Translations under genes and position numbers: made by a program | In this document: in pieces, positions 30,732 through 47,920 of the stretch | How the letters are laid out: each line of letters starts with the position of its first letter | Numbering within the stretch: the first letter of the stretch is position 1 | NCBI GenBank assembly: GCA_030153215.1 | Contig: JASKKA010000013.1 | Span: forward strand, 1-48,043 | Origin: Trichococcus sp. | GTDB lineage: Bacteria > Bacillota > Bacilli > Lactobacillales > Aerococcaceae | Reading direction: 5' to 3' | Length of the DNA: 48,043 nucleotides | Notes under the pieces: generated by a model | Database searches by the model: none | What the model saw: the letters and a program-made list of their open reading frames with translations, nothing else | What the model was told of the DNA's origin: nothing

Positions 30732-30741
30732 ATTTTTCATC

Positions 30742-32982
30742 CTAACTGTTGTCTATTTTTTGTAAATGATAAAGTTGACTTGAGAAATCGCCGGGCATCT
30801 TGCGGCTCCAGTAATCCTGGGCACGGCCGATGTAGTTGCCGCCCAGCAACAGTCCCGCTTGCATCAGATCGTCGCCGTAGCGGACTGCTTCATTTCCGTC
30901 GATCCGGTAAAGAGCAGCAGCGTCGAGTCCGGCCAGCAAAATCCGCTCATAAGCAGGATTCGGTTTTGCCAAAACGTGATAGACCCCGACCAAAGCTTCC
31001 GACTTGTCAGCCGCAACGACCATCCAGGCCGTCGTATTGCCTTCGAATGGGCTCAGCAAGCGATAAAAATCGCCTTGATGGATCAGCGCCTGCCAACCTT
31101 TCACTTGCGTAATCTGCTCGCGGATGATTGCCTTCTCGTCCTCCGACAGCTTCGTACTGTCGAGTTCGTAGCCAAACGTCCCGAATGCCGCGACATCCCC
31201 ACGCATCTTCAATGATGTGATGCGAGCGACTTGGTGGTTCGGCACTTCGGAAACATGGCTGCCGATAGCGGACAACGGATAAACCAACGAAGTGCCGTAC
31301 TGGATTTTCAGACGCTCCACTGCATCGGTGTCATCGCTGGCCCAAGTCTGCGGCGCATAATACAGCAAGCCGGCATCAAAACGACCGCCGCCGCCGGCAC
31401 AGGATTCAATCAGCAACTCCGGATAACCAGCCAGTATCTTTTCGTAGAGCGCATAAACGCCTAAAATGTAACGGTGCAAAATTTCTCCTTGGCGCTCCGA
31501 GGACAAAGCCTGCGAAAACGCTTCGGAAATGTAGCGATTCATGTCCCATTTGACATAATCGATCTTACAGCTTTTGAGGATGGCATCCATCTGGGCGAAG
31601 ATGTTGTCCACAACTTCGGGCCGCGAAAAATCGAGCACATACTGATTGCGTCCGTGAGAAATATTTTTGTGAGGATGGCCGATTTCCCAGTCGGGATGGG
31701 CATCATGGATCGGCGTTCCGACCGATACCATCTCGGGTTCGAACCACAGGCCGAATTGGAGACCCAACGCGTGGATTTTGTCCGCCAATCCCGCGATGCC
31801 GGTCGGAAGTTTGGCGCGATCGACCGACCAGTCCCCCAAGGAACTTGCGTCATCATCGCGTTTGCCGAACCAGCCGTCGTCCAGGACGAACAGATCGATG
31901 CCCAAGGCCTGCGCGTCCGTTGCCAACTCCAAAATTTTGGCTTCGTCAAACTGGAAGTAAGTGGCTTCCCAATTGTTGATCAGGATAGGCCGCTTCCTGC
32001 CTGACCATTTCGGACTGATCAGATGGTTGCGGTAAAGCGAATGAAAAGTCTGGCTCATTCCGTTCAGGCCGGCATCACTGTAAACCATGACGGCTTCGGG
32101 AGCCGTGAACACCGCACCCGGCGATAACGCCCAGCCAAATTGATGAGGATTGATCCCCAGCATCGCCCGTGTGACATGGTACGGATCGACTTCCACCTGT
32201 GCCAAAAAATTGCCGCTGTAGACAAAGCTGAAGCCGAAAACTTCCCCTTGCCGCTCGGTCGCTGTTTTTTTCGCCAGGGCAAAGAAGGGGTTGTGTACAT
32301 GGCTGCTGGCGCCGCGCGTGCTGGAAATATGCTGCACCCCGGTCAAAAGCGGATGCCGCTCCAATTGCGCTTCGCGTGCCCAGGCACCGTGCAGGTGGAT
32401 GAAATCAAAGTCGTCCGTCGGCAAGTCCAGGCTGAAGCTCATCAGACGCTCCAACTGATACGTCTCGTTGCCGCTGTTGCTGATTTCGACATGACGCGTC
32501 AAAGCGCTGAATTGGTGGAAAATCGTATACGATAGTTTCAGCACCAAGGCAGAATAGCGGTCATGCAGGCGGATTTCTAGGGTAGTCGCCTCTTCTGCTT
32601 CCGCAAAGGTCGCCGGCATCCCCGGCAATTTCTTTTTCCCTTCAATGACTTGATAGTCTAAGTATTCAAATTGGCTGATCCGATCCCCGTCCGGATAGCG
32701 GATTTCCAGAGCCGGATAGCGGAAATCGGTCGTCCCGAACACCGGCAGCTCCTGTTTCACGTGCTCAAGCGACGTCGTGTGGTCGCCTGTCACTTGGTTG
32801 TTGGAAGGACGGATCTCCCTTTCGATCAGATGATCGAAAGAATCGCGGTGGCGGATCGCCTTCCCGGCATACAGTTGTTCCAGCGTATGCGTCTTTTCCA
32901 TCACGCGGAAAATATAGCTGATTTTCCCGTTCGTCAGATGGAATTCTTGGTTGGTTTCATTGATATGGACCGTTTTTTTCAC
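30742..32982 (-). CDS. Alpha-galactosidase (GH36)
   Basis: A 746-residue GH36 enzyme, full length for the bacterial AgaA/RafA group. It has an N-terminal beta-sandwich, then a (beta/alpha)8 barrel with LDDGWFGKRDDD, the nucleophile Asp in YVKWDMNRYI near residue 480, ESCAGGGGRFD, and the acid/base region TWASDDTD near 545. It removes alpha-1,6-galactose from galactomannan fragments or raffinose-type sugars in the cytoplasm (no signal peptide). The start is GTG 32982, with GGGGG six bases upstream. In this locus it debranches imported galacto-manno-oligosaccharides before the GH1 enzyme acts. Confidence 0.95.
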   Translation of the reverse strand: MKKTVHINETNQEFHLTNGKISYIFRVMEKTHTLEQLYAGKAIRHRDSFDHLIEREIRPSNNQVTGDHTTSLEHVKQELPVFGTTDFRYPALEIRYPDGDRISQFEYLDYQVIEGKKKLPGMPATFAEAEEATTLEIRLHDRYSALVLKLSYTIFHQFSALTRHVEISNSGNETYQLERLMSFSLDLPTDDFDFIHLHGAWAREAQLERHPLLTGVQHISSTRGASSHVHNPFFALAKKTATERQGEVFGFSFVYSGNFLAQVEVDPYHVTRAMLGINPHQFGWALSPGAVFTAPEAVMVYSDAGLNGMSQTFHSLYRNHLISPKWSGRKRPILINNWEATYFQFDEAKILELATDAQALGIDLFVLDDGWFGKRDDDASSLGDWSVDRAKLPTGIAGLADKIHALGLQFGLWFEPEMVSVGTPIHDAHPDWEIGHPHKNISHGRNQYVLDFSRPEVVDNIFAQMDAILKSCKIDYVKWDMNRYISEAFSQALSSERQGEILHRYILGVYALYEKILAGYPELLIESCAGGGGRFDAGLLYYAPQTWASDDTDAVERLKIQYGTSLVYPLSAIGSHVSEVPNHQVARITSLKMRGDVAAFGTFGYELDSTKLSEDEKAIIREQITQVKGWQALIHQGDFYRLLSPFEGNTTAWMVVAADKSEALVGVYHVLAKPNPAYERILLAGLDAAALYRIDGNEAVRYGDDLMQAGLLLGGNYIGRAQDYWSRKMPGDFSSQLYHLQKIDNS

Positions 32983-33024
32983 ATTGTACCCCCATTTGCA
33001 TATTCAAACTGCCTTACCTTACGC

Positions 33025-33663
33025 TTACTTTTTTAGCAGCATTTTATCAAAACGTTTCTTTATTTTTGCAACAACCCAAACGCTCGATATACCTACTACC
33101 CCCGGCGCAAACCCAATAAGAAAAATGCCATTGCGCAGGCTGAACCACAAAGTTGCCACCAGGACGAACAACAATACTAGAGACCAGCCCGCCACGCGCA
33201 CCAACATATAGATCTGCAAAGGAACAGTCCATTTCATATCCAGAAATTCCCGTTCAAAAACAGTGCGGGTAACCAACATCAGGCACACAAACGCTTCACT
33301 GAAAATAGCCAGGTATTTGATTGCGCTCCACAGTGTTTCCCCAACTACGCTTGGAGCAGGAAGAAAGGGAATAATGAATAAATAAAGGACAAGGAAAAAG
33401 ATGAAAACGGAAAGGAACCTTCTTTTGTCGCTGTTGGTGTAATTAGTTTTAAAATTGTTGAAGGTATTTTTTCGCTTTTTGTCCAATACATCGGAACTGA
33501 CCGCAAGCAAGGCTTCGATGGATGCGTAAAGCGTAAAGATTCCAAAGCCTTTCATCAGGTATAACCAAAAGAAAAAACTATTTTTGATTAACTCATATAT
33601 AAAGTCAGTCAGAAGGTATAGCCCATTCACGAAAATATCCAGTTTATCCACGCTGTTTTGCAT
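33025..33663 (-). CDS. DUF624 (YesL-like) membrane protein
   Basis: A 212-residue protein with about five membrane segments. The first third matches YesL-type DUF624 proteins (LIKNSFFFWLYLMKGFGIFTLY, then a soluble loop KNTFNNFKTNY). Members are commonly encoded beside carbohydrate ABC transporters and glycosidases; no biochemical role is established. The ATG at 33663 follows GAGGGAT. It lies between the binding-protein gene and the alpha-galactosidase. Confidence 0.75.
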   Translation of the reverse strand: MQNSVDKLDIFVNGLYLLTDFIYELIKNSFFFWLYLMKGFGIFTLYASIEALLAVSSDVLDKKRKNTFNNFKTNYTNSDKRRFLSVFIFFLVLYLFIIPFLPAPSVVGETLWSAIKYLAIFSEAFVCLMLVTRTVFEREFLDMKWTVPLQIYMLVRVAGWSLVLLFVLVATLWFSLRNGIFLIGFAPGVVGISSVWVVAKIKKRFDKMLLKK

Positions 33664-33697
33664 GCTGATCCCTCATTTGTATGGTTTATGATAAAAG

Positions 33698-33723
33698 ACT
33701 GAAAGCACCCAGGCGCCCTCAGT
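33698..33723 (-). terminator. Attenuating hairpin after the binding-protein gene
   Basis: On the minus strand ACTGAGGGCGCC pairs imperfectly with GGTGCTTTCAGT and runs into CTTTT. A leaky stop here would raise binding-protein mRNA over the genes downstream. Confidence 0.5.
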
Positions 33724-33751
33724 CTCAAATAGCTGCCGGATGAATCCGAGC

Positions 33752-35035
33752 TTAATCTAATTTAAATTCTTTGCGCAAATCCTCAGCAAGTTTCTTCAAT
33801 GGTTGTTCCACAGGTGTATTGTTCAAATTAAGTGTTTCGATCAAAGCCGTAATTTTGGACTCCACTTCCGAAACAGCAGGATGGTATGGCGTGTTCAATA
33901 CAATGCTGCCATCATTCAATTGATTCACTAGTGATTGAGCATTCTCAGGAGCACCTGCAAGGGACAAGACATCATCAGCAGCTCTATTTACGACAGGTAC
34001 AGCCGAAGCGATTTCCGCTTGGATATCTTGTCCGCCACCGTAAGTCAAGAATTCGAGCAGTTCCCATGCTTCTTCAGGATATTCTGTATCTGCATTGATG
34101 CTGATTGGCAGATAAGCTGCAGAAGATTGTGTTCCTTTGTCGCTACCGACAGGCAATGGAACCACATCAAACTCGAAATCCGCATTTTTTTCATATTCAA
34201 TCCAATCCCAAGGTCCAGTCATGCGCATCGCAGCTACGCCTGACAAGAAGAGATTCGAAAGTCCTTCTTGCTGCGCGCCGGTAGGTTGAACATTAAATTC
34301 GTTGACCAAGGATTGGCTGAATGCGATCGCTTCAATAGTTTGCGGATCATCCAATTTCACTGCGGCCGTTACAGGATCCAGCATGCTTGTTCCGTATGCT
34401 GTCAACAACTCTTTCAAATAGAAACTCTCGATACCGAATTGGACAGTCCGTTCGCCATCCTTTACCGTCAATTTTTTCGCGATGTCCAAAAATTCTTCCA
34501 TCGTCCAATCATCTTCCGGATAAGCAATTCCGGCTTCATCGAACATATCTTTGTTGTAACCAATCTGTACAGTTGAACGGTCACGCGTCATCGCGTATTG
34601 CTTCCCATCGACTTGTCCAAGCTCCAAAACACCCGGTTGGAATTCTTCCAGATCCAGATCTTGAACATGTTCAGTCAAATCCATTACTAATTCATTTTCC
34701 ACAAATCCACCAAATCCGGCTGGCTGCACCCACAGCAAGTCAGGGAGATTACCGCCCGCAGCCATTGTAAGGACGCGCTCGTTGTATTCGGCATATGTGG
34801 CAGATACTTGTTCAATTTTGACATTCGGATGTTCTTTTGTAAAAGCATCAAGGATTTCTTGCTCTTTCTTCGTTCCTTCCGGGTTGTTGTTCCAAGTCAT
34901 AATCTTCAAAGTGACGGTATCTTCTCCGTTGGCATTTTGAGCCGAAGAGTCCCCCGCAGATCCATTACCACATGCAGCCAGTAAAGTTGCACCAATCACA
35001 GCTAACGAATATAACGCTTTTTTTCCGAATTTCAT
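33752..35035 (-). CDS. Sugar ABC transporter solute-binding lipoprotein
   Basis: A 427-residue family 1 extracellular binding protein. The signal peptide ends in a lipobox (GATLLAAC, lipid-modified Cys near 22), followed by a Ser/Ala/Asn linker and the mature fold beginning VTLKIMTWNN; MTGPWDW and YLPISINAD-like motifs are typical of oligosaccharide binders. The ATG at 35035 follows GGAGGG; the longer in-frame reading upstream is not part of it. With the two permease genes it forms an importer, by context for manno- or galactomanno-oligosaccharides. No ATPase gene is present; a shared MsmK-type ATPase encoded elsewhere is expected. Confidence 0.92.
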   Translation of the reverse strand: MKFGKKALYSLAVIGATLLAACGNGSAGDSSAQNANGEDTVTLKIMTWNNNPEGTKKEQEILDAFTKEHPNVKIEQVSATYAEYNERVLTMAAGGNLPDLLWVQPAGFGGFVENELVMDLTEHVQDLDLEEFQPGVLELGQVDGKQYAMTRDRSTVQIGYNKDMFDEAGIAYPEDDWTMEEFLDIAKKLTVKDGERTVQFGIESFYLKELLTAYGTSMLDPVTAAVKLDDPQTIEAIAFSQSLVNEFNVQPTGAQQEGLSNLFLSGVAAMRMTGPWDWIEYEKNADFEFDVVPLPVGSDKGTQSSAAYLPISINADTEYPEEAWELLEFLTYGGGQDIQAEIASAVPVVNRAADDVLSLAGAPENAQSLVNQLNDGSIVLNTPYHPAVSEVESKITALIETLNLNNTPVEQPLKKLAEDLRKEFKLD

Positions 35036-35055
35036 CAGTATATCCCTCCAGTTAG

Positions 35056-35727
35056 TTATCCTTTGTTTCCTTGTGTAGCAATACCTTGTACAAAATATTT
35101 CTGACCCGTGAAGAAGATGAGAATCAACGGCAGCAACATCAATGTACTTGCAGCCATCATCGGCCCCCAATACACGGTCAATGCTCCCTGGAATTGCATG
35201 ACACCGATCGCCAATGTGTATTTTTCCATGCTATGCAGATAGATCAACGGCGTCATGAAGTCATTCCAAAATCCCATGAAACTCAACAGCGTAACGGTGA
35301 TGATTGACGCGCGCGACATCGGCAAAATAAGCCTCCAATAAATTTGGAATGTGTTCGCTCCATCAAGATAAGCTGACTCCTCAACCTCTTTGGGGATAAT
35401 CATCGTTACTTGCGGAGGCAACATCAACGTCGACAAAAGCAGAGCGAACCAAACGCCTCTTCCTTTCGCTTTGATGCGCGCAAAACCGTAAGCAACAAGC
35501 GAGCTTGACACAACCGTCCCGAAGGTCCCCAATCCAGCGACCAGTAGCGAATTTTTATAGAAAGTCGCAAATGGGACTATTTCGAATACTTCCTTATAAT
35601 TGTCCCAGTCCCATACTCTTGGCATCAAACTAGGCGGAAATGCCATCGCTTCATTTTCCGGCTTGAATGCGGTAAAAATCATCCATAAGAACGGAAAGAT
35701 AAAGAGCACCGACAGCAGTCTCCCGAT
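35056..35727 (-). pseudogene. Sugar ABC permease 2 (MalG type), start and an internal segment missing
   Basis: The readable frame begins inside the first membrane helix (LFIFPFLWMIFTAFKPENE) and ends normally (FFTGQKYFVQG). Two pieces are missing relative to about 277-residue relatives. The first is the start codon, about 20 N-terminal residues and the gap to permease 1, whose 3' end is fused directly at about 35720. The second is about 40 residues between LMLPPQVTMI and IPKEVEESAYLDGA at about 35405, in frame; it removes a membrane helix before the EAA loop, which itself is kept. A GTG at 35709 with GGGAG upstream could start a 217-residue product, but it is unlikely to be a working permease. 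Confidence 0.75.
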
Positions 35728-36602
35728 TCGTAATACACTTGTTTACCAACAAATTTGAAAATAAATACCGTCAGTACGAGCACAATTAGGAACAATACCC
35801 ATGCCAACGCCGATCCGTACCCTTGATTGAAGAATCGGAAGCCCTGTTGATACAAATAGAACACGTAGAACATCGATTGATAATTCGGTCCGCCAGTCCC
35901 GCTGCTGGCAACATATGCTTGCGTGAAGACTTGAAGGGATCCGATCAATCCCATGATCAATTGGAAAAAGATAACAGGCGATGTAATCGGAACTGTAATA
36001 TTCCAGAATTTATGCCAAGTGCTTGCACCATCCAGCTCAGCAGCTTCATAAAGTGAAACAGGCACTTCCTGCAGGCTGGCCAAGTAAATGACCATCCCTC
36101 CACCGATACCCCATAGACTCATGATGATCAATGTCGGTTTGACCATCTGTTCGCTCAACAACCACATGGATGTCGGTAATCCAAAGAAATCTAAGATAGC
36201 GTTAGCAATACCGAAATTAGGTTGGAAGATCAGTGTCCACAATAGCGATGTTGCTACGGTAGGCACAATCGAGGGTAAATAAAAGATTGTCCGGAAAATT
36301 CCGATAAACCTCACTTTTGCGTTCAGTAAGACCGCCAGAAGGTAGCCTGTCACCAAACTCAATGGCACACTCAGTAGCGTGTAGAATAAAGTGTTTCCCA
36401 TCGATTTCCAAAAAAGCGGATCTTCTGCAAACATTTTCCGATAATTTTCAAGCCCTATCCATTGAGGCGAACCGAATCCCGTAGAGTCGGTAAAAGAAAG
36501 ATAAAGTGAATAAAGCATTGGCCCTGCAGTCAGCAGAAGAAATCCTGCGATCCACGGAAAAGTAAACATATAAAATAATTTTGTTCTGTTTTTGCTTAAC
36601 AT
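35679..36602 (-). CDS. Sugar ABC permease 1 (MalF type), altered C-terminus
   Basis: 307 residues as read, of which about 294 are native. There are six membrane helices starting KLFYMFTFPWIAGFLLL, and an EAA loop near residue 195 (EAAELDGASTWHKFW, then ITVPITSPVIF) that docks to the ATPase. The native end is FVGKQVYYESG; the last 13 residues are frame-shifted sequence of the permease 2 gene, produced by the deletion that joined the two genes. The core is complete, so it may fold. The ATG at 36602 follows GAAAGGAG. It heads the transporter operon. Confidence 0.85.
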   Translation of the reverse strand: MLSKNRTKLFYMFTFPWIAGFLLLTAGPMLYSLYLSFTDSTGFGSPQWIGLENYRKMFAEDPLFWKSMGNTLFYTLLSVPLSLVTGYLLAVLLNAKVRFIGIFRTIFYLPSIVPTVATSLLWTLIFQPNFGIANAILDFFGLPTSMWLLSEQMVKPTLIIMSLWGIGGGMVIYLASLQEVPVSLYEAAELDGASTWHKFWNITVPITSPVIFFQLIMGLIGSLQVFTQAYVASSGTGGPNYQSMFYVFYLYQQGFRFFNQGYGSALAWVLFLIVLVLTVFIFKFVGKQVYYESGDCCRCSLSFRSYG

Positions 36603-36865
36603 TCTGTACTCCTTTCTCCATCACAGACAATTGCTATAATTAACTCATTTGCTGTTTTTTGTAAAACAAAGTGGTTGTCATACTTAAATGATACCCTTTA
36701 CATTTTGATATGTTGCCAAAGTCAATTGTTCGCGAAAAATGAAATCCTCTGTGTCTTCTTTTTCAGCACTGATGATCAAAACTACCCTTTTTTTGTTCCC
36801 CCTTTTCTGATGAATCGACAAACTGAAACGATTATTACCTTTTAATTTCTCTCAACCACACCAAT

Positions 36866-36894
36866 AATATAACATATATACTTTTAAAAGTAAA
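36866..36894 (-). promoter_or_regulatory. Promoter of the sugar ABC transporter operon
   Basis: Minus-strand TTTACT (36894-36889), 17-bp spacer, TATATT (36871-36866). It gives a leader of about 260 nt before permease 1; within that leader (36603-36860) I see no named element apart from T-rich stretches, and no good CcpA site. Confidence 0.55.
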
Positions 36895-36947
36895 GGTATA
36901 TTTCTATTTATTTGATAGAAGCAATAGCATTTCTTAGGCTGTTTACC

Positions 36948-39900
36948 TTAGTTAATTTTAACCAGATCTTCTATAGTGTCCTGTAATGATTCCAACGTAT
37001 GCCAAAGCGCTTCTTTTTCTGCTGATTCATTTTTTATTAGTTTTTCAGCATTTTTTAAAGCTACCTTGAAAGCTTTCCAACTCTCCTTTGTATATTCTTT
37101 TTTTACTAATCCATTGGCATCATCGACTGCGTTCTCAAGCGCTTCGATAGTCATCTCGTCGATTGAAACAGCTTCCCTTGTCTGAAATGAAGCTTCTATA
37201 CTCTCGGAAGATACTGCCATAATTTTGTCATAATAAATTGTCCCACTGACTCGGCCGTCCTTGATGGCTGCAGAATCTCCAATAGCATTCATCCAAAGTC
37301 CAATATTCGTCACTTGGCTTGCTGCTTCACTTGTGAGTGGAGCTTGAGTCCTTTTATCCAGAAATTCTGAAAACGGAAGGGTTACAAGTAGCGCTTCGGT
37401 AACAGAAGCATATGCTTTATAATTGTTAAGATACGCTTCGTACGATCCTCCATCTGCCGTATTGATCTGAATGACTGTTTTTTGATTTTTCCCATCTGGA
37501 ACTACCCAGAATTGCAAGGCATCAGACGCGGACCAATCAGCCTCTTTTGCCATAGTAATGCCAGCCCAACCTGTCACGGTCTCATCATAAGAGAACTCCA
37601 GAGAGTAATCACCTTCCAAAACGTTGTCTGTTGATAACGAGATAACCAAATTACTCCCGCTGTCCTTATTCACAGCCCAGCTACTATTCAGCAATGTGGA
37701 CTCACCGAAATAGGATTCAAAGTCGTCAACCAACAACGCATCCTTCTCTTTCTCAGGAATATTGAACAAAATCGGAATTTCTTGCATCACTGCATTGTCA
37801 GCATACAATATTATTTTACCATTAACGGATTCACCCAGTTGCGCAAGAATTTCATTTGTTATTACAGCTCCAGCAACTTTACCATCAACATGTGTATCGA
37901 GCGGTATTTCCAGCGTCCCATTGGATACGCTTATGGTAGCCATTGTATTTTCCATATTCAAACGTGCGTTCACGAGGGTTTCTTCGAGAATTCGGGTTCC
38001 AGCAATCGGTTGTGTGAAATATCCACTTATTTGGCCATTTTCCATTACTATTGGTTGGATTGGCTGTAAGGAAAGAGCAGCTTTTTGATCGGAGGCAAAG
38101 ATGCTCTTCTTATTATTGTAGAATTCAATAAAAGGATCCATCAATTCATGCCCATGCAGTGTTCCATCCTCATTTACCGATGCAACATAGGGCGTGTAAA
38201 AACTTTTATCAGAATAATTCGTCCAGGTCATAAAAAAACTGCAGTCATATGCATCCTTTGAAAGGATATCAAGAATTTCAGTGAACCAGTAAGGGCGCCT
38301 GTTTCCTGAATCTTGCATGCCTAAAATACCGATTTCCGTCACCGCAAATAGTTTTCCATGCTGTTTTGCAAACGTGTCGGTAAGTTTGACCGAATTTTCG
38401 AAATTAGTCTGAAAAGAATAGCCTTCTTCATCCGGAACAGGATTGGAATCGTATGTATCAAATCCGATCATGTCGACATAGTCATCTCCTGGGTATCTTT
38501 CACCATATTCATCTAGCGTAGCAGCTTCAGACCCTGGACCATATACATACAGCAAGTTGTGTACATTTTGGATATCACGTAGGTATTCTACAGTATACTT
38601 GAACACACTCTTATATGTTTCAGTATCACTGAATGCCTTCCCCCACCAAAACCAGCTTCCAGTATTTTCATGAAAAGGCCGAAAAAGAATGGGCCCATCT
38701 ACTTGCTTCGCATACTCTGCAATCATATCTAGGTAAGCAGTGAATTGTTCATGGTATTGACCACCTGGCAGGATTTGATTCATAGTATTCCCTTTAAGAT
38801 TATATGAATCTGCCGGAGTATAATCATATCGATCATAGGTTTTCTCTGCTGAAGCGTTTTCCGTAGTTGCAAAAGCAAAATTTGGCATATGTGCAGAAAG
38901 TGTCATCACACCACCTTCTTCAATGGTCTCATTTGTGAACAGCGCCGCAGCTCTGATATTTCCTTCTGTGTTTTCTGGGATTTGCGGATTTTGCGGGTGA
39001 CGATTATTATATTTCTCTGCAAATCCTTCAAACAAATTGCCACAGTCCAGACCGTTTATTCCGGAAATAGAACCAGTCAGATCTTTAGTGTCCGAATAAG
39101 TCAACTCATTTGTTCCAGCTTTTAATACGGTATCCTCCATGTGTCCATAAATGACTGCATTTGATTCACCAACTGCTTTGAGATATTGATAAAGCGCCTT
39201 GGTGGCATCATTGGCTTTAGAATCTGTAAGTTGAATACTTTCAGCATACGGAATGATTTGGTTATTTATAGTAAGCATCTCACTTTGTCCTAAAAGATTC
39301 GTTTGACTTTCTGCCGTCACTGTTGCATCTACGTAGCTATCTTCGACTACAGGAGACGACAGTCGGATATTATCGAACCATAAGCTCCCTTTGTAATCTG
39401 TATTGTTCCCTACAATCAATAGCATCAGTTTTTCAGGAGTTTCTGCTTTCGCATAGGTAGGATCGATTTTAAACGTTACGGTAGCCTTTTTAATGTTTTC
39501 ACCGATGTCTTCAGTGGATAGATTATTCAGTCCTACCATCTGTTCCTGAAAAATACTACCGGAATTGGCCTTAAGCGTGATCTGCCCCGTTGTGTACGCT
39601 GTTGAATCATAAAAAAAATCGAAAGTAAGAGTGCTGAACTTTGAATAATCAATCCCTGTTCCGTTTGAAAAACTGATGCCTGGCTGACTCCACCCATTGG
39701 AGCTATCTTGCGAAAAATCGATATCGACTTGCAGTCTGCCATTGAGCAGATCATGACTATACCCACTTGTGCCATGGTAACCATCTCCAGCCCAACTACT
39801 ATCAAAGACCCACCCTTGTGTCCCTTCAGTAAAATCCCATAGCCGATCTTGTGAAGTAGTTTCTTCTGCCGCAACCAAGGGAACAACCGTATCCAAATAA

Positions 39901-39962
39901 CTTACACACAAAGAAACACCTAAAAATACTGCGCCTACTCGCCGGATAATTTTCTTCTTCAA
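36948..39962 (-). CDS. Secreted GH26 beta-mannanase, multidomain
   Basis: A 1004-residue extracellular enzyme. There is a signal peptide (KKKIIRRVGAVFLG start, cleavage near residue 31), then a carbohydrate-binding-like beta-sandwich (about 40-205, starting LWDFTEGTQGWVF). The GH26 catalytic barrel (about 245-620) has acid/base Glu in FRPFHENTGSWFWWG near 430 and nucleophile Glu in AVTEIGI near 540. A linker follows, then a second binding-like module (about 765-930, DDFESYFGES) and a FIVAR-like three-helix end (about 940-1004). No LPXTG anchor is visible; surface retention would depend on the helical end. It cuts internal beta-1,4-mannosidic bonds. The start is TTG 39962 with AGGAGG upstream. 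Noticeably more AT-rich than its neighbours, suggesting transfer. Confidence 0.9.
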   Translation of the reverse strand: MKKKIIRRVGAVFLGVSLCVSYLDTVVPLVAAEETTSQDRLWDFTEGTQGWVFDSSWAGDGYHGTSGYSHDLLNGRLQVDIDFSQDSSNGWSQPGISFSNGTGIDYSKFSTLTFDFFYDSTAYTTGQITLKANSGSIFQEQMVGLNNLSTEDIGENIKKATVTFKIDPTYAKAETPEKLMLLIVGNNTDYKGSLWFDNIRLSSPVVEDSYVDATVTAESQTNLLGQSEMLTINNQIIPYAESIQLTDSKANDATKALYQYLKAVGESNAVIYGHMEDTVLKAGTNELTYSDTKDLTGSISGINGLDCGNLFEGFAEKYNNRHPQNPQIPENTEGNIRAAALFTNETIEEGGVMTLSAHMPNFAFATTENASAEKTYDRYDYTPADSYNLKGNTMNQILPGGQYHEQFTAYLDMIAEYAKQVDGPILFRPFHENTGSWFWWGKAFSDTETYKSVFKYTVEYLRDIQNVHNLLYVYGPGSEAATLDEYGERYPGDDYVDMIGFDTYDSNPVPDEEGYSFQTNFENSVKLTDTFAKQHGKLFAVTEIGILGMQDSGNRRPYWFTEILDILSKDAYDCSFFMTWTNYSDKSFYTPYVASVNEDGTLHGHELMDPFIEFYNNKKSIFASDQKAALSLQPIQPIVMENGQISGYFTQPIAGTRILEETLVNARLNMENTMATISVSNGTLEIPLDTHVDGKVAGAVITNEILAQLGESVNGKIILYADNAVMQEIPILFNIPEKEKDALLVDDFESYFGESTLLNSSWAVNKDSGSNLVISLSTDNVLEGDYSLEFSYDETVTGWAGITMAKEADWSASDALQFWVVPDGKNQKTVIQINTADGGSYEAYLNNYKAYASVTEALLVTLPFSEFLDKRTQAPLTSEAASQVTNIGLWMNAIGDSAAIKDGRVSGTIYYDKIMAVSSESIEASFQTREAVSIDEMTIEALENAVDDANGLVKKEYTKESWKAFKVALKNAEKLIKNESAEKEALWHTLESLQDTIEDLVKIN

Positions 39963-40020
39963 TAAAATGACCTCCTCTAAAAAAGTTCACTGATCACACC
40001 TGACACTTGCTAACCCGTTT

Positions 40021-40059
40021 CTACATAAATCCGAACGTAACCCCTTTGATAAAATCCAT
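40021..40059 (-). pseudogene. 5' stub of a lost gene (GH113-like start)
   Basis: A 12-residue frame (MDFIKGVTFGFM, then TAG) with an excellent AAAGGAG site upstream. The sequence looks like the first residues of glycosidases of the GH113 beta-mannanase type (FIKGxTFGF start). The frame stops abruptly and leads directly into the GH26 leader. I read it as the remains of a second mannanase-type gene removed by deletion; a leader peptide cannot be excluded. Confidence 0.4.
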
Positions 40060-40077
40060 GATCTTCTCCTTTACGTA

Positions 40078-40105
40078 TTGACATACCGTTACAAAAGTAT
40101 ATATT
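40078..40105 (+). promoter_or_regulatory. Promoter of the CE7 esterase
   Basis: Perfect -35 TTGACA (40078-40083), 16-bp spacer, TATATT (40100-40105), with a leader of about 125 nt. Inverted ATACCG (40084) and CGGTAT (40119) flank the -10 and could be an operator. No further gene is visible in 39963-40239. Confidence 0.55.
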
Positions 40106-40239
40106 TATTAATGTATGCGGTATCATCATTATTCATCATTAAGATAGTTTTGTAAAGAACTGATGTGTCTAATTTTTGGGTACATGATGTTTTTGTAAAA
40201 TTTTAAACTTGTTTCAAAAAAATAGTTGGAGGATGGAAG

Positions 40240-41175
40240 ATGGATTATAAGGATTATCAAGGCAGCGGGATACGCCCGCATGATTTCGATGTTTTTTGGG
40301 AAGAAGGTTTGCGGGAAATGGAGAGACTTCCGCTTGAGTACAAATTGGAGATAGCGGCTGTCCCCTCACAAGTCGCAACTTTCTATCATCTGACGTTCAT
40401 CGGCGTCGGTGGCGCGGAAGTGCATTGCCAACTCTTGACGCCCAAATTTACAGCCGGCATGAAACTGAAAGGGATGCTGCAATTCCACGGCTACCATGGT
40501 GATTCCGGTGATTTCCAGGATAAAGTCGGTTGGGTGGCGGAAGGTTTCGTCGTATTGGCGATGGACGCCAGGGGTCAAGGTGGGCTTTCCGAGGACCGCA
40601 CGCAGACGAAAGGCGGCGTCCTGAAAGGATTGATCATCCGCGGCATGGAAGAAGGCAAAGAAAACCTCTATTATCGGCAAGTTTTTCTGGATACTGCCCA
40701 TGCAGCGCGCATCCTCAAATCGCTGGATTTTGTCGATGAAACAAGGATCTATGCGCAAGGTGCTTCCCAAGGCGGAGGCCTGACGATTGCCTGTGCCGGA
40801 TTGGTTCCGGATCTTTACCGCGTTTACGTCACTTACCCTTTCCTGTCCGATTATCGCAAAGCTTATGCACTCGGCGCCCAAACTTCCGCATTCGAAGAGA
40901 TCCCTTACTGGTTCCAGTTCCGCGATCCGCTGCATAAGCGCGAAAAAGAAGTCTTCGATACATTGGAATACATCGACATCCAACATTTCGCACCGCGCAT
41001 CAAAGCCGAAGTCTACTGGGTCATCGGGCTGCAGGATACGGTCGTTCCGCCGATCACGCAGATGGCCACCTACAACAACATCACCGCAAAGAAACAGCTG
41101 ATCACACTACCGGAGTACGGTCACGAGTACTTGCCGAAAGTCAGCGATGAGCTGCGCGGGTATTTTGTGGAGTAA
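40240..41175 (+). CDS. Acetyl esterase, CE7 family (acetyl xylan esterase/cephalosporin-C deacetylase type)
   Basis: A 311-residue alpha/beta hydrolase with all CE7 signatures: RGQGG at 111-115, nucleophile Ser176 in GASQGGG, Asp266 in GLQDTVVPP and His295 in GHEYL. No signal peptide, so it acts in the cytoplasm, probably as a hexamer, removing acetyl groups from imported oligosaccharides. Next to the mannanase its likely role is deacetylating acetylated (galacto)glucomannan fragments. The ATG at 40240 follows GGAGG. Confidence 0.93.
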   Translation: MDYKDYQGSGIRPHDFDVFWEEGLREMERLPLEYKLEIAAVPSQVATFYHLTFIGVGGAEVHCQLLTPKFTAGMKLKGMLQFHGYHGDSGDFQDKVGWVAEGFVVLAMDARGQGGLSEDRTQTKGGVLKGLIIRGMEEGKENLYYRQVFLDTAHAARILKSLDFVDETRIYAQGASQGGGLTIACAGLVPDLYRVYVTYPFLSDYRKAYALGAQTSAFEEIPYWFQFRDPLHKREKEVFDTLEYIDIQHFAPRIKAEVYWVIGLQDTVVPPITQMATYNNITAKKQLITLPEYGHEYLPKVSDELRGYFVE

Positions 41176-41250
41176 GGAATTGATAAGAATTGGGCAATGA
41201 TGACCGCCCACCGGAGAAGAGCTTTTGGGATTGGGGGATTGGGTCCCCTC

Positions 41251-41606
41251 CTCCGGTGAAGCCCGGCTCGCCGGAGTTCATCGGTAACCTTCGACCGCAC
41301 CTCCGACGAAGCCTTGATCATCGGAGAACGCACCCTCAAACGACTGCTCAACTCCGGCGAAGCTTCCGTTCGCCGGAGCAAGACAAAAAAATCCGCCAGA
41401 CTGAGCTATCAGATCGGCGGATTTTTGTTGATTTATTTGGTGTGACTGGATCCTAACAATTCCAAACATACCCCATGCTCCGGTGAAGCCACGCTCACAG
41501 GGGTTCATCGGTAACTTTCAGCCACACCTCCGACGAAGCCTTGGTCATCGGAGAAGGCACCCTCAAACGACTGCCCAACTCCGGCGAATCCTCCGTTCGC
41601 CGGAGC
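41251..41606. repeat. Two direct copies of a 129-bp element made of three palindromes
   Basis: Copy 1 is 41251-41379 and copy 2 is 41478-41606, equal in length and highly similar. Each contains three successive palindromes with cores CTCCGGTGA, CTCCGACGA...TCATCGGAG, and CTCCGGCGA...TTCGCCGGAG, separated by conserved links such as CACCCTCAAACGACTG. The third palindrome of copy 1 is near perfect. There is no gene in this 510-bp gap. It belongs to the same CTCCGG family seen at 2.2 and 27.45 kb. Confidence 0.88.
41383..41426. terminator. Terminator hairpin between the two 129-bp repeats
   Basis: AAAAAAATCCGCC pairs with GGCGGATTTTT around an 18-nt loop, with a T-run on the plus strand and an A-run giving T's on the minus strand. 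It could stop both the esterase and helicase transcripts. Confidence 0.8.
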
Positions 41607-41684
41607 ACAGCGAATCAGCAACGGAGTGGATCAGCAACGCAGAACCGCGCCGCCCCGTGAACCCAATTTTCCCAAATATCCCAT

Positions 41685-43759
41685 TCAAACCGAAAAGAAG
41701 TTATTCAGAATCCACTTGATTCTCAAGCTTTTGGGAACCAAATGCATGAATTTTTGATGGACCGTCAATTCTTCGATGGCCTTCTCGTTTCTATCCAGAT
41801 AGGCCGCAACGGTGTCCAAAGAAACATCCTCATCCGTCAGCCTTTGCATGATTCTTTTCAAGTCTGGACCGGTGATCAGGGAATGCTTATCGTGCAATTG
41901 ATACTTCTCCCCCTCAACGACGATGCTCTTGATGAGCAGCAACAAGGCGATATTGAACTTGGTCCCTTTGAACGTCACGATGCCGATATTGGTCTGATTA
42001 TCCTCAAACCAATAATTGCCTGCATCAAAGTAGAGTGCACTTTTCAGAAAGTCAAAGTCGCGCGTAATCTTATCGTTGTTCAGATTCAGGTACTCGCCCG
42101 TCCGCAGTAACTTTTCCATATTTTCCCGCACTTCATTGGAAACGAACCCTTCGTCGCTGATGAATTTCGGAGGTTTTCCCTCTTTCGTCCTTTCCACCTG
42201 GATGCGTTTTGCCTTGACATCGATATCTTTCACAATCCACACCCGGCCCGCCAACAGAATTTTGCTTTCGATTTGGATTTCCGGTGTGAACGGCAAACTA
42301 CCGATGCGCTCGTGTTGATAATGCACAGAAAAATCACTGGTCGTGAAAAACAGCGCGTAGAAATCCCGGGAACGCAGCAGACGCTCTCCCTCCAGACCGA
42401 CGATTGCCTCATCATCCATGATTTCAATGAAATCTTTTTCAATCATATAGTCAATCAACAACGCCAGGTCCGGATCCGAAATTGCTGACCAAACCGGAAA
42501 ATGTTTATTCAACTGCAAAAGTTGTTCCAGCGGAATGCTGACTTTTTGGAAGAGGATCGCCATAACCTGGTGCGCCAAGGCATTATAAGGTGTTTCAATC
42601 ATTTCTGTGGCATCCAGTTCGCCCCGCTCGAGCAAATCCAGTGCAGCATAGGTCTGCAGCATTTCCCATGAGTCATCTTCCACAATGTGCAGGATGCTTT
42701 GATGGCTTCTCCGTCCGCTGCGTCCCAGTCTTTGGCTGAGCGAAGAGGTAGATGGAGGGGAGCCGTACTGCACGACGCTGTCCACGGAGCCGATGTCAAT
42801 TCCCAGTTCCAAGGTGGATGTACAGGTGATCGTGAACAGTTGATCCTCATTGTTTTTCGCAAAAAATTCCACTTCTTCACGCAACAGTTTGTCCACCGAT
42901 GAATGATGGGCAAAATAGCGGATCGGTGCGTTCTCTTTTTTTGCCATCTTATCCAACTTATGGGTGATTTCTTCCACCCGATTGCGGGAATTCGGAAAAA
43001 TCAGCATCGTTTCGGTTTTGGAATACTGGTAGATGGCTGCCAAAGATTCCCTGGCGACGAATGGCCCAGACTCGCCGCTCGTATAATCAATTGTGATGAG
43101 CAGGTCGTTTTTGACGCGGTCCACGAGGATATCCGTGTGACGTGGACTGCCGAAAAAGGCTTTCGCATAGCTAAAATCTGTTTTATTCAGGGTCGCGCTC
43201 ATCGCAATGAAGCGCGGTGCTTGCATGAATCGGCTGATCCGCTGCAGCAGCGACTGCAGATGAATGCCCCGTTCCGTCCCCAGAAAACTATGGAGTTCAT
43301 CGATGATGATCCATTCCACCCCTTTAAAGAGGTGCTCCGCCTCACCCGGCCGATTCACCAGCATCCCTTCGATCGATTCCGGCGTGATCAATAGAATGCC
43401 TTTCGGTTGATTCACAACCTTTTTTTCTGTGCTTGGGAAACTTCTCCATGCCAGCGTGTGATCGGAATATCTAAATATTCACTGAGCTCGCTGATGCGCT
43501 GAAACTGATCATTGATCAGAGCTTTCAAAGGCGAAACGTACAACACCTTCAGCCCCGTTTCCCAATCTTCGACACTGTTCAATGCCGGAATGAATGCTGC
43601 TTCCGTTTTCCCGGATGCCGTTGGAGCGGACAAAATCAGGTTATGATCGGTATTGGTAACCTGTTTGATGGCCGCACTTTGAATATTTGTTAAGCTTGGC
43701 CAGCCTTTATCATAAATATACTGTTGGATATCTCGGCTGAGACTGTCAAATGCCTGCAT
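41685..43759 (-). pseudogene. sngC: Shango-type DEAD/DEAH helicase SngC, frame interrupted at an A7 tract
   Basis: The first frame (ATG 43759) holds the Q-motif region and Walker A (SAPTASGKTEA, about 44-54) and ends at a stop (43412) just after QAQKKRL. The rest (from about 43415) continues in the -1 frame as VVNQPKGILLITPESIEG, with DELH, MSATLNKTD, TSTLELGID and QRLGRSGRR, for about 690 residues in all. The break is a run of seven A's (43426-43432 on the plus strand as T's); eight A's would restore one frame. All Lhr-like helicase motifs are intact. A sequencing slip, phase variation or transcriptional slippage are each possible. The ATG overlaps the sngB stop (TGATG), so they are coupled. 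Confidence 0.8.
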
Positions 43760-45087
43760 CAGTAAACCTCTATTTCATCGTGATCATCTGCATCCTTCAC
43801 AACAGCAGGAGCTTTTCTGCCGAATCGATCAGCAAGGATATCGGAAAAAGCATGATCCGGATTCTGGCGTTGCAAGGACAGAATTTCGATATAGTCCTTG
43901 ATGACGGAACGTGGCGTCAAGAACGCCGCAGCTCCGGGCCGGTTCAGCTGGTCTTCCATGTATTGCTGAATTTCGCTGTCCTTAACAGACAGCTTCGTTT
44001 GGTAAGCCGTATTGTATATTTCCAATAACTTGGTCAAAAGGATAAAAATTTCTTCCGGCGTCAGCGGCTTCAGATCGATGACAGTGCTGTTGACATTGAC
44101 ATAGTCTTTATTTTTCATCAATTCGTTCCCGAAGCGCGTCTTCAAAGCCCCATAGCTGGCCAGTCCTCGACGTTCATCGTAAACCGTGTTCTTGGTGGCG
44201 CCGAAGTTGACGAACAGCCCTTTTGCTTCGTTTGTTTTGGTTTCGTTGTACAGATTGAGGATCATTTCATAATTTTTTTCACGGGTCAGTGCACGCGGCA
44301 ATTTGTACAGATTGACGGATTCATCAAAATTGATGACGAATCCCTTGTAGCCGATTTTCAAAAACAATTCTGCCAGATTTTTCAAGGCGATGAGGTAGTT
44401 TGAGTCGTTGATGACATTCTTGATGCCCAATTCCTTAGAGGCTTCCGTTTTTGTCGTGATATCTCCGCGGATCCAACGAATCGCCTCGATCTGCAAAGAC
44501 ATATTATCGCCTGCGATTCCTTCAAAATATTTCATCAACGCTTGCCCGAATTCATAAGACAGCCCCGATGAATAGAAGGAATTGGTCGTCTTCAGGATGG
44601 CGTTCTCCACCAATTTCCAATGGGTCTTTTCCATCAATTCAGGAACGGTGAGGGCGTTTTCCGCGGCAAGTTGCTCGAGCAGCACCTGGATCCATTGCTG
44701 GACGATCGTTTCGATGGCATTTCCGTCGCGGTTATTCTTGATGACGATCTTGTTGACGACTTCGTTATAGAGCGCCAAAGCTTTCCCGGAGGAATCATAA
44801 AAACGGCGCGTCGGAGTCAAGTCGATTGTGGAGACAACAAAGTTCTTTTGCAGCGCCAATGATTCAATCGTCCGCAAAACAAAACTTTTGCCCGATCCGA
44901 AATCGCCTACCCAAAACCGCAGATCACTATTGCCGTCTTCCAAGTTTTGTAAGGTATCGATGATCTCCTTGACTTCGTTGCTTCTGCCGACCAACACGTG
45001 CTGGACCCCTTTTACCGGCACAACCCCTGCCTCAAGCGAGGCGATAATTGTCTGGGCATCTTTCTTTCTCAACTTGCTTTCAGCCAT
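43759..45087 (-). CDS. sngB: Shango-type ATPase SngB (BrxD/DUF2791-like)
   Basis: A 442-residue P-loop ATPase related to BREX ATPase BrxD/DUF2791. Walker A is GDFGSGKSF at residues 61-69, and the Walker B-like strand is GFVINFDES around 265-273; VGRSNEVKEI near 33 is typical of AAA/STAND-like ATPases. In Shango it works with the TerB-domain protein and the helicase to block phage; the mechanism is not settled. The start overlaps the end of sngA by 8 nt and its stop overlaps the sngC start, the tight coupling expected of a complex. Confidence 0.85.
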   Translation of the reverse strand: MAESKLRKKDAQTIIASLEAGVVPVKGVQHVLVGRSNEVKEIIDTLQNLEDGNSDLRFWVGDFGSGKSFVLRTIESLALQKNFVVSTIDLTPTRRFYDSSGKALALYNEVVNKIVIKNNRDGNAIETIVQQWIQVLLEQLAAENALTVPELMEKTHWKLVENAILKTTNSFYSSGLSYEFGQALMKYFEGIAGDNMSLQIEAIRWIRGDITTKTEASKELGIKNVINDSNYLIALKNLAELFLKIGYKGFVINFDESVNLYKLPRALTREKNYEMILNLYNETKTNEAKGLFVNFGATKNTVYDERRGLASYGALKTRFGNELMKNKDYVNVNSTVIDLKPLTPEEIFILLTKLLEIYNTAYQTKLSVKDSEIQQYMEDQLNRPGAAAFLTPRSVIKDYIEILSLQRQNPDHAFSDILADRFGRKAPAVVKDADDHDEIEVY

Positions 45088-46909
45088 ATAGCCATTCCCT
45101 CATTTCTTCCATAAAATCCTCCTCGATGATGACCTGTTGCTGGCTGATTACCAGCACTTGATCATCGAACACTTCATACAACACCTCATTCAATTCCGTG
45201 AGGTATGCGTGATGGAGCTTGCCATTATTTTTTGCCTGTTCCTTGAAATCATCCAGAGAGATTCCATCATTTGCCACCAAGTGTTTCAGGAATGCCATTT
45301 GCTCAGAATCCTGGTCATTGTCAGGCTCAGTGATTGCTGTTTCTTCGGATTCTTCCATAATAGCGGCGGCACTTTGCGATTCTTTTACCTCTACGTCCGA
45401 CGACAGATCGATCTCGCCAACAAAACCCGGCTCGATGGCTGCCTCTTCCCCCAAATAAGTGTCAACCATATCAATGATTGTATCCAGGGCCGAGTGCGAG
45501 GCGCTGATCAAGGCTTTGTCCAGTTTGATTTCTCTGCGCGGCGGTTGCGTGCATTCCCTCAAAAGCTCCGGCAAATTTTCGATAGTAAGATCGGCATCAA
45601 GCAATAACTGCTGATAATCGGCCTGTCTGGTCGGATAAATGAAGCCATCCCGTTCTTTTTGCAACGCTCTTGAAATCGGCAACTCCATGCGTTCCATCAG
45701 GCAAATAAACAGGATGCGCTTTTCCGGATCCTCACTCTGTTTGATCACCTTCGCGGCTATCTTTTTCAAGTCCGGATCCTCTGCCACTTCACAAAGAACA
45801 CTGCCCACTTGCTCGACCGATTGGCGGATAAACAAGTTTGCAGCCTCATGCCAAACGGTCTTGTTTACGTTGCGCAAGGCTGCAATGGTCGGATAATCCA
45901 GCTCGATCTCAACTTTCTGCTTCAGACAGTCTTGCAGTTTCCGAAACGTCTCATCCGGAAGATACTGCGCCAAAGTCTGCAGACTTTCTTCATCAGGCAG
46001 TACGCGCAGCCCTTCCACTTCGCGGCGGACAGCGTTCTCTGCCAGGATGTACAGGTCCGTTGGCAACCGGAACGTTTCCGCCCAGACACGACCATCATCC
46101 AGCGGCAAACGGAAATATTTCCGGAAATAATTATTGGGTTTGACCTTCCATTTGATGGAATCCTCCTCCAGATCATGCAATACGAGCTGCAAAAGTTCCA
46201 CGTATTTCGACAAGCACAGGCTCATGACAGCCGGTATTTCCGTAAACCGCGTCGCCCTTTTCCTTAGGTGATCGAAATACGCCATTTCAATCCCATCAAA
46301 AATTTGTTTATCCCGAAGCACCCCTGATGGGTCCCACCAGACGATTTTGGTTCCGAACTGCGTCAAGCCAAATCGCGTTCTTGTCTCTTCATCCGGAGCA
46401 GGCAAATATTTGCGGTACTCCTCAACCTCGCGGGCAAGGATTTTTTGGATATCCCTGGACAACATGGCTTGCAGATCATAGGAAAAATAGGCATCTGGGT
46501 GCATATTGTCCTGTCTATAAAATGAAAATACCACTTCTCTGGCCAACCGATGAATTTCGTCAAAGATAGTGACGCGGTAATAGTAGCGTTCATATTTCAC
46601 ATGTTTGATATTTTTGCGCTTCTTCTTGAATTCGACGTCAACGACAGTACACAAGATTTCAAATAAGGCACCTACCACAGCCTCCACTTGTCCTGTCAAA
46701 TTTTCATTCAGTCTTACTTGAGGCGAAACGTAGCTGATCCATGATTCCTTTACAGCTTTCGTTTCAGCTTTTTTTAGAGCGCTCTGCTCTTTGATGAGAT
46801 CTCTTGGATTGATGAAGGACTCCTCGTTCTTCACCAACTCGATGATCGATAATTTTTTCTCTTCGGTCATTTGCTTATTTTTGAATATTTTATTTACGAA
46901 TTCAAACAT
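45080..46909 (-). CDS. sngA: Shango-type TerB-domain protein SngA
   Basis: About 609 residues with a TerB-N-like central region (KESWISYVSPQ, then many charged helices about 60-300, including FGTKIVWWDPSG) and a C-terminal TerB-C-like helical region (about 540-609, after an acidic low-complexity linker rich in Glu/Asp/Ser at 500-535). No catalytic motif is evident. TerB-domain proteins coupled to a BrxD-like ATPase and a DEAD helicase define the Shango anti-phage system. ATG 46909 has AGGGGGAA upstream at rather long spacing. It is the first gene of the operon, after a near-consensus promoter with two LexA-type boxes. Confidence 0.82.
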   Translation of the reverse strand: MFEFVNKIFKNKQMTEEKKLSIIELVKNEESFINPRDLIKEQSALKKAETKAVKESWISYVSPQVRLNENLTGQVEAVVGALFEILCTVVDVEFKKKRKNIKHVKYERYYYRVTIFDEIHRLAREVVFSFYRQDNMHPDAYFSYDLQAMLSRDIQKILAREVEEYRKYLPAPDEETRTRFGLTQFGTKIVWWDPSGVLRDKQIFDGIEMAYFDHLRKRATRFTEIPAVMSLCLSKYVELLQLVLHDLEEDSIKWKVKPNNYFRKYFRLPLDDGRVWAETFRLPTDLYILAENAVRREVEGLRVLPDEESLQTLAQYLPDETFRKLQDCLKQKVEIELDYPTIAALRNVNKTVWHEAANLFIRQSVEQVGSVLCEVAEDPDLKKIAAKVIKQSEDPEKRILFICLMERMELPISRALQKERDGFIYPTRQADYQQLLLDADLTIENLPELLRECTQPPRREIKLDKALISASHSALDTIIDMVDTYLGEEAAIEPGFVGEIDLSSDVEVKESQSAAAIMEESEETAITEPDNDQDSEQMAFLKHLVANDGISLDDFKEQAKNNGKLHHAYLTELNEVLYEVFDDQVLVISQQQVIIEEDFMEEMREWLYG

Positions 46910-46954
46910 CTTGGACGTTCCCCCTTTCCAAGTCACTCTGCAGGATACCCTCTA

Positions 46955-46983
46955 AGTATACGTCGGATGGCGCACATATTCAA
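46955..46983 (-). promoter_or_regulatory. Promoter of the sngABC operon
   Basis: Minus-strand TTGAAT (46983-46978), 17-bp spacer, TATACT (46960-46955), about 45 bp before the sngA ATG. Confidence 0.7.
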
Positions 46984-46995
46984 GAACGCGTGTTC
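46984..46995. promoter_or_regulatory. LexA/DinR-type box 1 (GAAC-N4-GTTC)
   Basis: GAACGCGTGTTC fits the Gram-positive LexA (DinR) consensus GAAC-N4-GTTC exactly and directly abuts the -35 of the sngA promoter, a position where a repressor would block polymerase. Confidence 0.6.
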
Positions 46996-47013
46996 TGCAG
47001 AAAAATGATTAAA

Positions 47014-47025
47014 GAACCCCTGTTC
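47014..47025. promoter_or_regulatory. LexA/DinR-type box 2 (GAAC-N4-GTTC)
   Basis: GAACCCCTGTTC is a second exact GAAC-N4-GTTC match, 30 bp (about three helix turns) from box 1 and so on the same face. The rest of the gap up to 47222 shows no gene. Confidence 0.55.
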
Positions 47026-47251: not shown

Positions 47252-47282
47252 GAGGTAAAGATAGAAAACGGAGGTGCCTCAA

Positions 47283-47606
47283 ATGCTAAAAATATTAGAT
47301 GTGAACACTAAATCAGTTACTGAAGCAAAAAAAGAATTTTCAAAAATCATCAAAGACATCAATCAAACCGGAGAGCCAACTTTTATTTTTAATCATAATA
47401 AGCCTGAAGCTGTTATACTCAGCAATACCACCTACGAAGAACTTGTAAAAAGAAACATGGTCCTTGAAGAAAAACTCTTTTATAGCCAACTAAACAATCG
47501 AGTCAAAGAAGGTCCCGGTGAGCTCATTCCCTCTGAAAAGGTAATCGAATCCAACCAAGAAAATAATCCTTTCTCCGCATTGTCTGATAAGGATTTGTTT
47601 GATTGA
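47283..47606 (+). CDS. Phd/YefM-family antitoxin
   Basis: A 107-residue type II antitoxin. The N-terminal DNA-binding domain is typical of Phd/YefM (VTEAKKEFSKIIKDI, then GEPTFIFNHNKPEAVILSNTTYEELV); the C-terminal half is polar and charged, as expected of a toxin-wrapping tail. ATG 47283 follows CGGAGG at good spacing; the GTG three codons earlier touches that site. Its TGA overlaps the toxin ATG, so the two are coupled. It probably represses its own promoter. Confidence 0.88.
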   Translation: MLKILDVNTKSVTEAKKEFSKIIKDINQTGEPTFIFNHNKPEAVILSNTTYEELVKRNMVLEEKLFYSQLNNRVKEGPGELIPSEKVIESNQENNPFSALSDKDLFD

Positions 47607-47920
47607 TGGCTGAGGTGTTTTTTTGGAAAGAAGCCGAAAGAGATTATAAAAAATTAGATGGCGCTTTGAAGCAGTGGGTCAACGCTGCTGAAGAGCGACT
47701 AAAAGAAAGAGGCTCAGAAATTGGTAAAGAACTCGGGAACACTACATATTCAAAGTTAGCGGGTTTTAAAGAACTCAAAAACCAAAGACTGGGTATTCGT
47801 CTCATTTTCAAACCCTGCAAAGATGGTAGTATAGAAATCATTGAGATCCTAGCCATTGGAAGAAGAGCAGATGATGAAATTTTCTTTACAGCGGAAAAAA
47901 GAAGAAAAAAACATTTATAG
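47606..47920 (+). CDS. RelE/ParE-superfamily toxin
   Basis: A 104-residue toxin of the RelE/ParE fold: FFWKEAERDYKKLD start, the central KLAGFKELKNQRLGIRLIF beta-sheet core and the basic end AIGRRADDEIF. RelE-like members cleave mRNA on the ribosome and ParE-like members poison gyrase; this one looks closer to the RelE-like type, but this is not certain. It starts inside the antitoxin stop (TGATG) and is followed by a terminator. Low GC, unlike the metabolic genes, fits a mobile cassette. Confidence 0.86.
   Translation: MAEVFFWKEAERDYKKLDGALKQWVNAAEERLKERGSEIGKELGNTTYSKLAGFKELKNQRLGIRLIFKPCKDGSIEIIEILAIGRRADDEIFFTAEKRRKKHL

Follow-up and report, generated by a model that had tools for sequence, protein, structure and literature searches.

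A conserved SOS-type operator at the promoter of a Shango-type defence operon suggests LexA control in Trichococcus

We analyzed a stretch of 48,043 nucleotides from a Trichococcus sp. genome (the window, meaning this whole stretch), which forms contig 49 of a partial assembly of 1.31 Mb and 51.5% completeness. Its minus strand carries an operon related to the anti-phage system Shango, sngABC, preceded by a promoter and two sites of the form GAAC-N4-GTTC. Listed in the direction of transcription, the features are as follows.

47014..47025, minus strand: distal GAAC-N4-GTTC site, exact in the window genome, the only one of 13 genus genomes to have it there
46984..46995, minus strand: promoter-proximal SOS box (predicted), GAACACGCGTTC on the minus strand; exact in the window and in 13 of 13 Trichococcus genomes
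46978..46983, minus strand: TTGAAT, the -35 element, directly adjoining the proximal box; invariant at 5 of 6 positions across 13 genomes
46955..46960, minus strand: TATACT, the -10 element, separated from the -35 by 17 bp; invariant at 6 of 6 positions across 13 genomes
45080..46909, minus strand: sngA, 609 aa from a conserved ATG; divergent TerB_C protein
43759..45087, minus strand: sngB, a 442-aa BrxC/BrxD-type ATPase; PADLOC SngB 467.6 bits, Pfam BrxC_BrxD 392 bits
43412..43759, minus strand: first part of sngC, with the start of the DEAD domain; PADLOC SngC 170 bits
41685..43415, minus strand: second part of sngC, the rest of the helicase; PADLOC SngC 429 bits, Helicase_C 54.6 bits

Shango comprises a TerB-like protein, an ATPase and a helicase; it is described as anti-phage in Pseudomonas aeruginosa and as reported earlier from Escherichia coli (PMC10250203). 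A Shango-type operon had been proposed for this locus from the DNA alone (hereafter the original prediction), and that assignment stands for SngB and SngC, which match the PADLOC models as a BrxC/BrxD-type ATPase and a DEAD/DEAH helicase, the latter with Pfam DEAD and Helicase_C domains. SngA is recognized in its C-terminal TerB_C part alone: the PADLOC SngA match (54 bits) covers residues 342-616 of the longer frame, Pfam TerB_C scores 38.7 bits, over its cut-off, and TerB_N gives no Pfam match at E 0.001. Because TerB_N as well as TerB_C is present in the three other Bacilli SngA proteins scanned, whose scores against the SngA model are 246-380 bits, the Trichococcus SngA is, as judged from its sequence, a divergent member. 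A tblastn search with it recovered the SngA of one other group of loci, g41, at 54-57% identity (4 of 4 loci) and gave no match in the other seven loci given.

All 12 relatives have sngC as one uninterrupted frame of 696 aa. The window alone breaks it into two frames, which share positions 43412-43415 next to a run of T. Either a sequencing error or a true frameshift may account for the split.

The promoter region is built as the original prediction had described it. Both exact GAAC-N4-GTTC sites are present with their centres 30 bp apart, and the proximal one abuts, on the minus strand and upstream of the sngA ATG, a TTGAAT-17-TATACT promoter. The ATG lies downstream of this promoter, at 46909, and is preceded by a G-rich ribosome-binding stretch. 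A longer GTG start at 46936, returned by the ORF tool, is less likely because the ATG and the sequence following it are conserved in the genus. The end of the proximal box lies 23 bases before the -10 of sngA, a distance within the range seen at uvrA (19), lexA (21) and recA (32) of the same genome, the -10s of these three genes being chosen by eye.

Counting the motif across the whole window reveals no enrichment (2 sites against 1.01 expected, with at least two in 27 of 100 shuffles), and such counting was dropped as evidence for the box. Within the 364-bp intergenic stretch itself, the shuffle probability of at least one exact box is 0.0044, and two exact boxes arose in 0 of 20,000 shuffles.

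Conservation of the proximal box is a stronger test than motif counting. The box is exact and at the same place in all 13 Trichococcus genomes; T. flocculiformis DSM 2094 and T. collinsii DSM 14526 are strains that carry both the locus and the box. When these genomes are aligned on it, all 8 half-site positions are invariant, compared with 2 of 4 in N4, 5 of 17 in the spacer between the -35 and -10, and 2 of the 12 bases upstream of the box. DNA further upstream is mostly unalignable among genus genomes. In each of 12 relatives, the main block of similarity to the window starts between 1 and 31 bases ahead of the box; in 9 of the 12 this block stops just beyond the sngC stop. The distal box, in contrast, is private to the window genome (1 of 13), so the two boxes originally proposed reduce to one conserved operator at sngA. 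An additional exact site at another position occurs in T. flocculiformis, 284 bp above the proximal box of that genome.

The original prediction had taken these sites for operators of the LexA/DinR type, and a scan of the genome finds the same form at its SOS genes. The window genome holds 12 exact GAAC-N4-GTTC sites, two of them at sngA. Exact sites stand upstream of recA and of uvrA, both confirmed as gene families, and all 13 Trichococcus genomes have GAAC-N4-GTTT upstream of lexA. The region before lexA also served as a positive control: 51 of 51 loci (the 13 Trichococcus loci included) and 23 of 23 showed a box there with at most one mismatch. GAACN4GTTC is listed for Bacillus subtilis and GAAC....GTTT for the lexA of Clostridioides difficile in the motifs given in PMC4234289. 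Since the same operator precedes recA and uvrA, with its GTTT form at lexA throughout, GAAC-N4-GTTC/T is, on these sequence grounds, the predicted SOS box of Trichococcus. The window genome encodes one LexA over the NCBIfam cut-off (TIGR00498), which matches solved LexA repressors over residues 2-197 and is predicted to be of the autocleavage type.

The remaining sites give a more mixed picture. Other exact sites of the window genome lie upstream of a dnaB-like gene, a gene for a 114-aa protein, an rplT-like gene and, at 288 bp, a YycF-like response regulator; four of the ten sites away from sngA sit within ORFs. The identity of dnaB was confirmed on the copy in a relative (G006), and that of rplT is our reading of the translation. 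Two complete genus genomes contain 30 and 25 exact sites, of which 12 are common to both by position, 9 upstream of genes and 3 within ORFs (11 read from alignment coordinates, plus sngA from a separate comparison; one further alignment, L138_1262, was left out of the count, as the second genome has no exact box there). The nine shared upstream sites precede recA, uvrA, sngA, a YdjM-family gene (Pfam), the 114-aa gene, dnaB, a Cof-type HAD hydrolase gene, rplT and a TnpB-like gene, the last assigned by our reading. In E. coli, ydjM is under LexA control. The shared set is rich in SOS genes yet impure, rplT and the TnpB-like gene not being known SOS genes. Genome-wide, the motif is not enriched over a reversed control (12 vs 21 in the window genome, 30 vs 52 and 25 vs 45 in the complete ones); its rarity could reflect avoidance of stray sites, a comparison on which we do not rely given that the control differs in dinucleotides.

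Three genes with sites deserve description in their own right. The 114-aa gene (L006 2035-2376; L119 862-1203) has an exact SOS box directly before a TATAAT, and a near-box lies where its ribosome-binding site is; its product has no Pfam or NCBIfam match and is a candidate SOS protein of Trichococcus. In each of the three Trichococcus genomes examined for it (L011, L110, L140), dnaB, which encodes the replicative helicase, is preceded by an exact GAAC-N4-GTTC. In two Trichococcus genomes, an exact box lies directly upstream of the gene for a YdjM-family membrane protein (L094 1543-2160, L103).

Taken together, these comparisons argue for placing the Trichococcus sngABC operon in the LexA (SOS) regulon, a reading to which we assign a probability of roughly 0.85. 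What is observed is the box, its conservation, an operator of the same form as those of the genus SOS genes, the promoter geometry and the lexA gene; from these we infer LexA binding, repression, induction by damage and phage infection as a natural trigger. A LexA dimer on the single conserved box, which abuts the -35, would compete there with RNA polymerase and keep the sngABC promoter low. Self-cleavage of LexA on RecA filaments is established. Following DNA damage, RecA on single-stranded DNA would provoke this cleavage, and sngABC would be derepressed along with recA, uvrA and lexA. The data thus suggest that DNA damage raises expression of a Shango-type defence, and the SOS interpretation of the original prediction is supported in a form reduced to one operator. 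Against it we count the lack of conservation of the distal box, the lack of motif enrichment in the window or genome-wide, the 3 of 12 shared sites within ORFs, and the upstream sites at rplT and the TnpB-like gene. We also count group g41, in which SngA is 54-57% identical and the -35 and -10 resemble those of Trichococcus, and which has no box with at most one mismatch at the Trichococcus place in 4 of 4 loci.

One alternative accepts LexA control and disputes the function: the operon would serve mainly as vertically inherited genome maintenance that shares proteins with Shango, rather than as an anti-phage system. In its favour, SngB is present in 13 of 13 Trichococcus genomes at 95-96% identity, the downstream flank is common to the five genomes compared (the window genome, G001, G004, G006 and G011), SngA is divergent, and no SngB relative occurs in the phage collection at E 1e-10. 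However, SngB and SngC match defence models strongly, the operon is set in variable DNA with a toxin-antitoxin-like pair, and the P. aeruginosa Shango is described as restricting phages (PMC10250203), so that we regard this alternative as unlikely. Beyond the genus, SngB is present in 5 of 63 other genomes of the family. The idea that the operon is prophage or phage cargo was dropped on the same search of phage records.

On its upstream side the locus varies among the same five genomes, with parts common to some pairs. Head to head with sngA, positions 47274-47920 of the window hold genes for a Phd-type antitoxin and for a weakly ParE-like protein (below the Pfam cut-off), and this stretch is 89% identical over 996 bp to DNA upstream of sngABC in G006. 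Beside sngC, about 12 kb of extra DNA (~29300-41680), including genes for a GH26/CBM11 protein and an acetyl xylan esterase, sets sngC apart from the flank shared with the four relatives. One record, MUZD01000001.1, titled Sedimentibacter sp. SX930, groups with the Trichococcus set and is probably mislabelled.

A second alternative places another dimeric repressor with a LexA-like site on the box, such as a shorter LexA/HdiR-like paralogue, which would answer to a different signal. Matches to the LexA family below the cut-off do occur in several genus genomes (for example G001, G004, G009, G010 and G012), but the window genome and seven others (G002, G003, G005, G006, G007, G008 and G011) carry the box and have a single match, the full LexA. 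The half-sites at sngA are, moreover, identical to those of recA and uvrA, and we consider a different repressor highly improbable. Also highly improbable is that the box binds nothing and is fortuitous, a by-product of the conserved surroundings of the -35, for although it abuts a -35 that is itself conserved, and g41 retains the -35 and -10 with no box at that place, only the two half-sites and the promoter elements are invariant, the inner, spacer and upstream bases being variable, and the shuffle probability for the intergenic stretch is low.

The LexA reading of the Trichococcus operon raises the question of Shango loci elsewhere. At E 1e-70, SngB was found in 37 of 395 genomes at the level of the order and in 53 of 398 at that of the class, 14 of the latter 53 being left out of the upstream comparison. 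Of 62 Bacilli loci outside Trichococcus, 54 sngA upstreams were scored; the other eight, in which the sngA start was not settled, are four of g117 together with L075, L076, L077 and L079. Two of these g117 loci (L225 and L245) have CGAAAATATGTTCG at -111 and -97. A box with at most one mismatch occurs in 18 of the 54 scored upstreams, against 3.36 expected, and these boxes are clustered: 10 of 10 loci in g29, 4 of 4 in g146, 2 of 4 in g41 (with one mismatch, after the -10), 1 of 7 in g84 and one on a Paenibacillus cellulositrophicus plasmid. Counted by group, a majority of loci is boxed in 3 of 20 groups against 1.16 expected (P = 0.106), which is not significant, and SOS control as a general Shango trait was not borne out. 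In the scored stretch, no box with at most one mismatch was found in g36, g38, g33, g63, g4, g107, f41, f40, f19, f37, f25, f30, f11 or either f42 genus.

The boxed groups differ in where the box lies. In g29, a genus from another Lactobacillales family, it sits just after the -10 at all ten promoters, as GAAT-N4-GTTC in eight and GAAC-N4-GTAC in two, and the surrounding DNA differs between subgroups. In g146, a Paenibacillaceae-like genus, CGAACAAAYTTTCG stands shortly before the -10 region at all four. Both loci scanned in this comparison of differently placed boxes have SngA of the canonical type. On the P. cellulositrophicus plasmid, an exact box abuts a TATAAT 160 bp before the annotated sngA start.

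Among proteobacterial plasmids, 18 loci were examined of 679-681 records (14 alphaproteobacterial and 4 beta/gammaproteobacterial), and none has a convincing SOS site. The alphaproteobacterial SOS consensus is GTTC-N7-GTTC. An exact copy lies 20 bp before sngA on a Sulfitobacter faviae plasmid (L282, near 1957), in 1 of the 14 alphaproteobacterial loci; because four other roseobacter loci (L285-L288) have no GTTC-N7-GTTC, we treat this site as probably due to chance. In L291, another of the 14, whose record lacks an annotated sngA start, the scan covered the first 1500 bases. The E. coli consensus CTGT-N8-ACAG, as listed in PMC4234289, was found with at most one mismatch in 0 of the 4 beta/gamma loci.

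The placement of the boxes upstream of the -35 in Trichococcus, after the -10 in g29 and before the -10 region in g146 allows a tentative further reading, which we hold to be possible and somewhat doubtful, that SOS control of Shango has more than one origin within Bacilli, as a repeated design, a damage-induced second line. Shango would then be switched on by single-stranded DNA arising from phage attack or from the action of other systems, and the Trichococcus operon would have become a fixed chromosomal member of the SOS regulon.

The original prediction knew of no described link between Shango and the SOS response, and in the literature searched, among the matches listed, we found no report joining Shango to LexA or SOS control. 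Where Shango and LexA occur within one paper of that literature they are mentioned apart from each other. 'SOS' is absent from the main text of the P. aeruginosa Shango paper (PMC10250203), and LexA and SOS are absent from the available text of the paper presenting the SngC helicase tree (PMC12278908). Within the available text of the searched literature, we found no description of what switches Shango on. The conserved SOS operator makes this switch directly testable. If the proposed control is true, DNA damage and phage defence would be governed by one switch in these bacteria, prophage induction would coincide with expression of the defence, and Shango may be stronger than assays on undamaged cells indicate.

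Three known systems frame these results. With the P. aeruginosa Shango, as PMC10250203 describes it, the Trichococcus operon shares an ATPase and a DEAD/DEAH helicase, preceded by a putative TerB-type protein, in the PADLOC order SngA, SngB, SngC; it differs in an SngA matched only at its C-terminus and in the SOS box predicted at its promoter. With BREX it shares protein families: SngB also matches BrxD (148 bits) and SngC matches BrxHI/HII (100 and 263 bits), although the Sng models outscore these by far, and a published tree places SngC with the BrxHI, DruE and DpdJ helicases (PMC12278908). Finally, like members of the LexA/DinR regulon of Gram-positive bacteria, Trichococcus sngA has an operator of the GAAC-N4-GTTC/T form next to its promoter; sngABC differs in that the operator is a predicted one and its target a defence-type operon rather than a repair gene.
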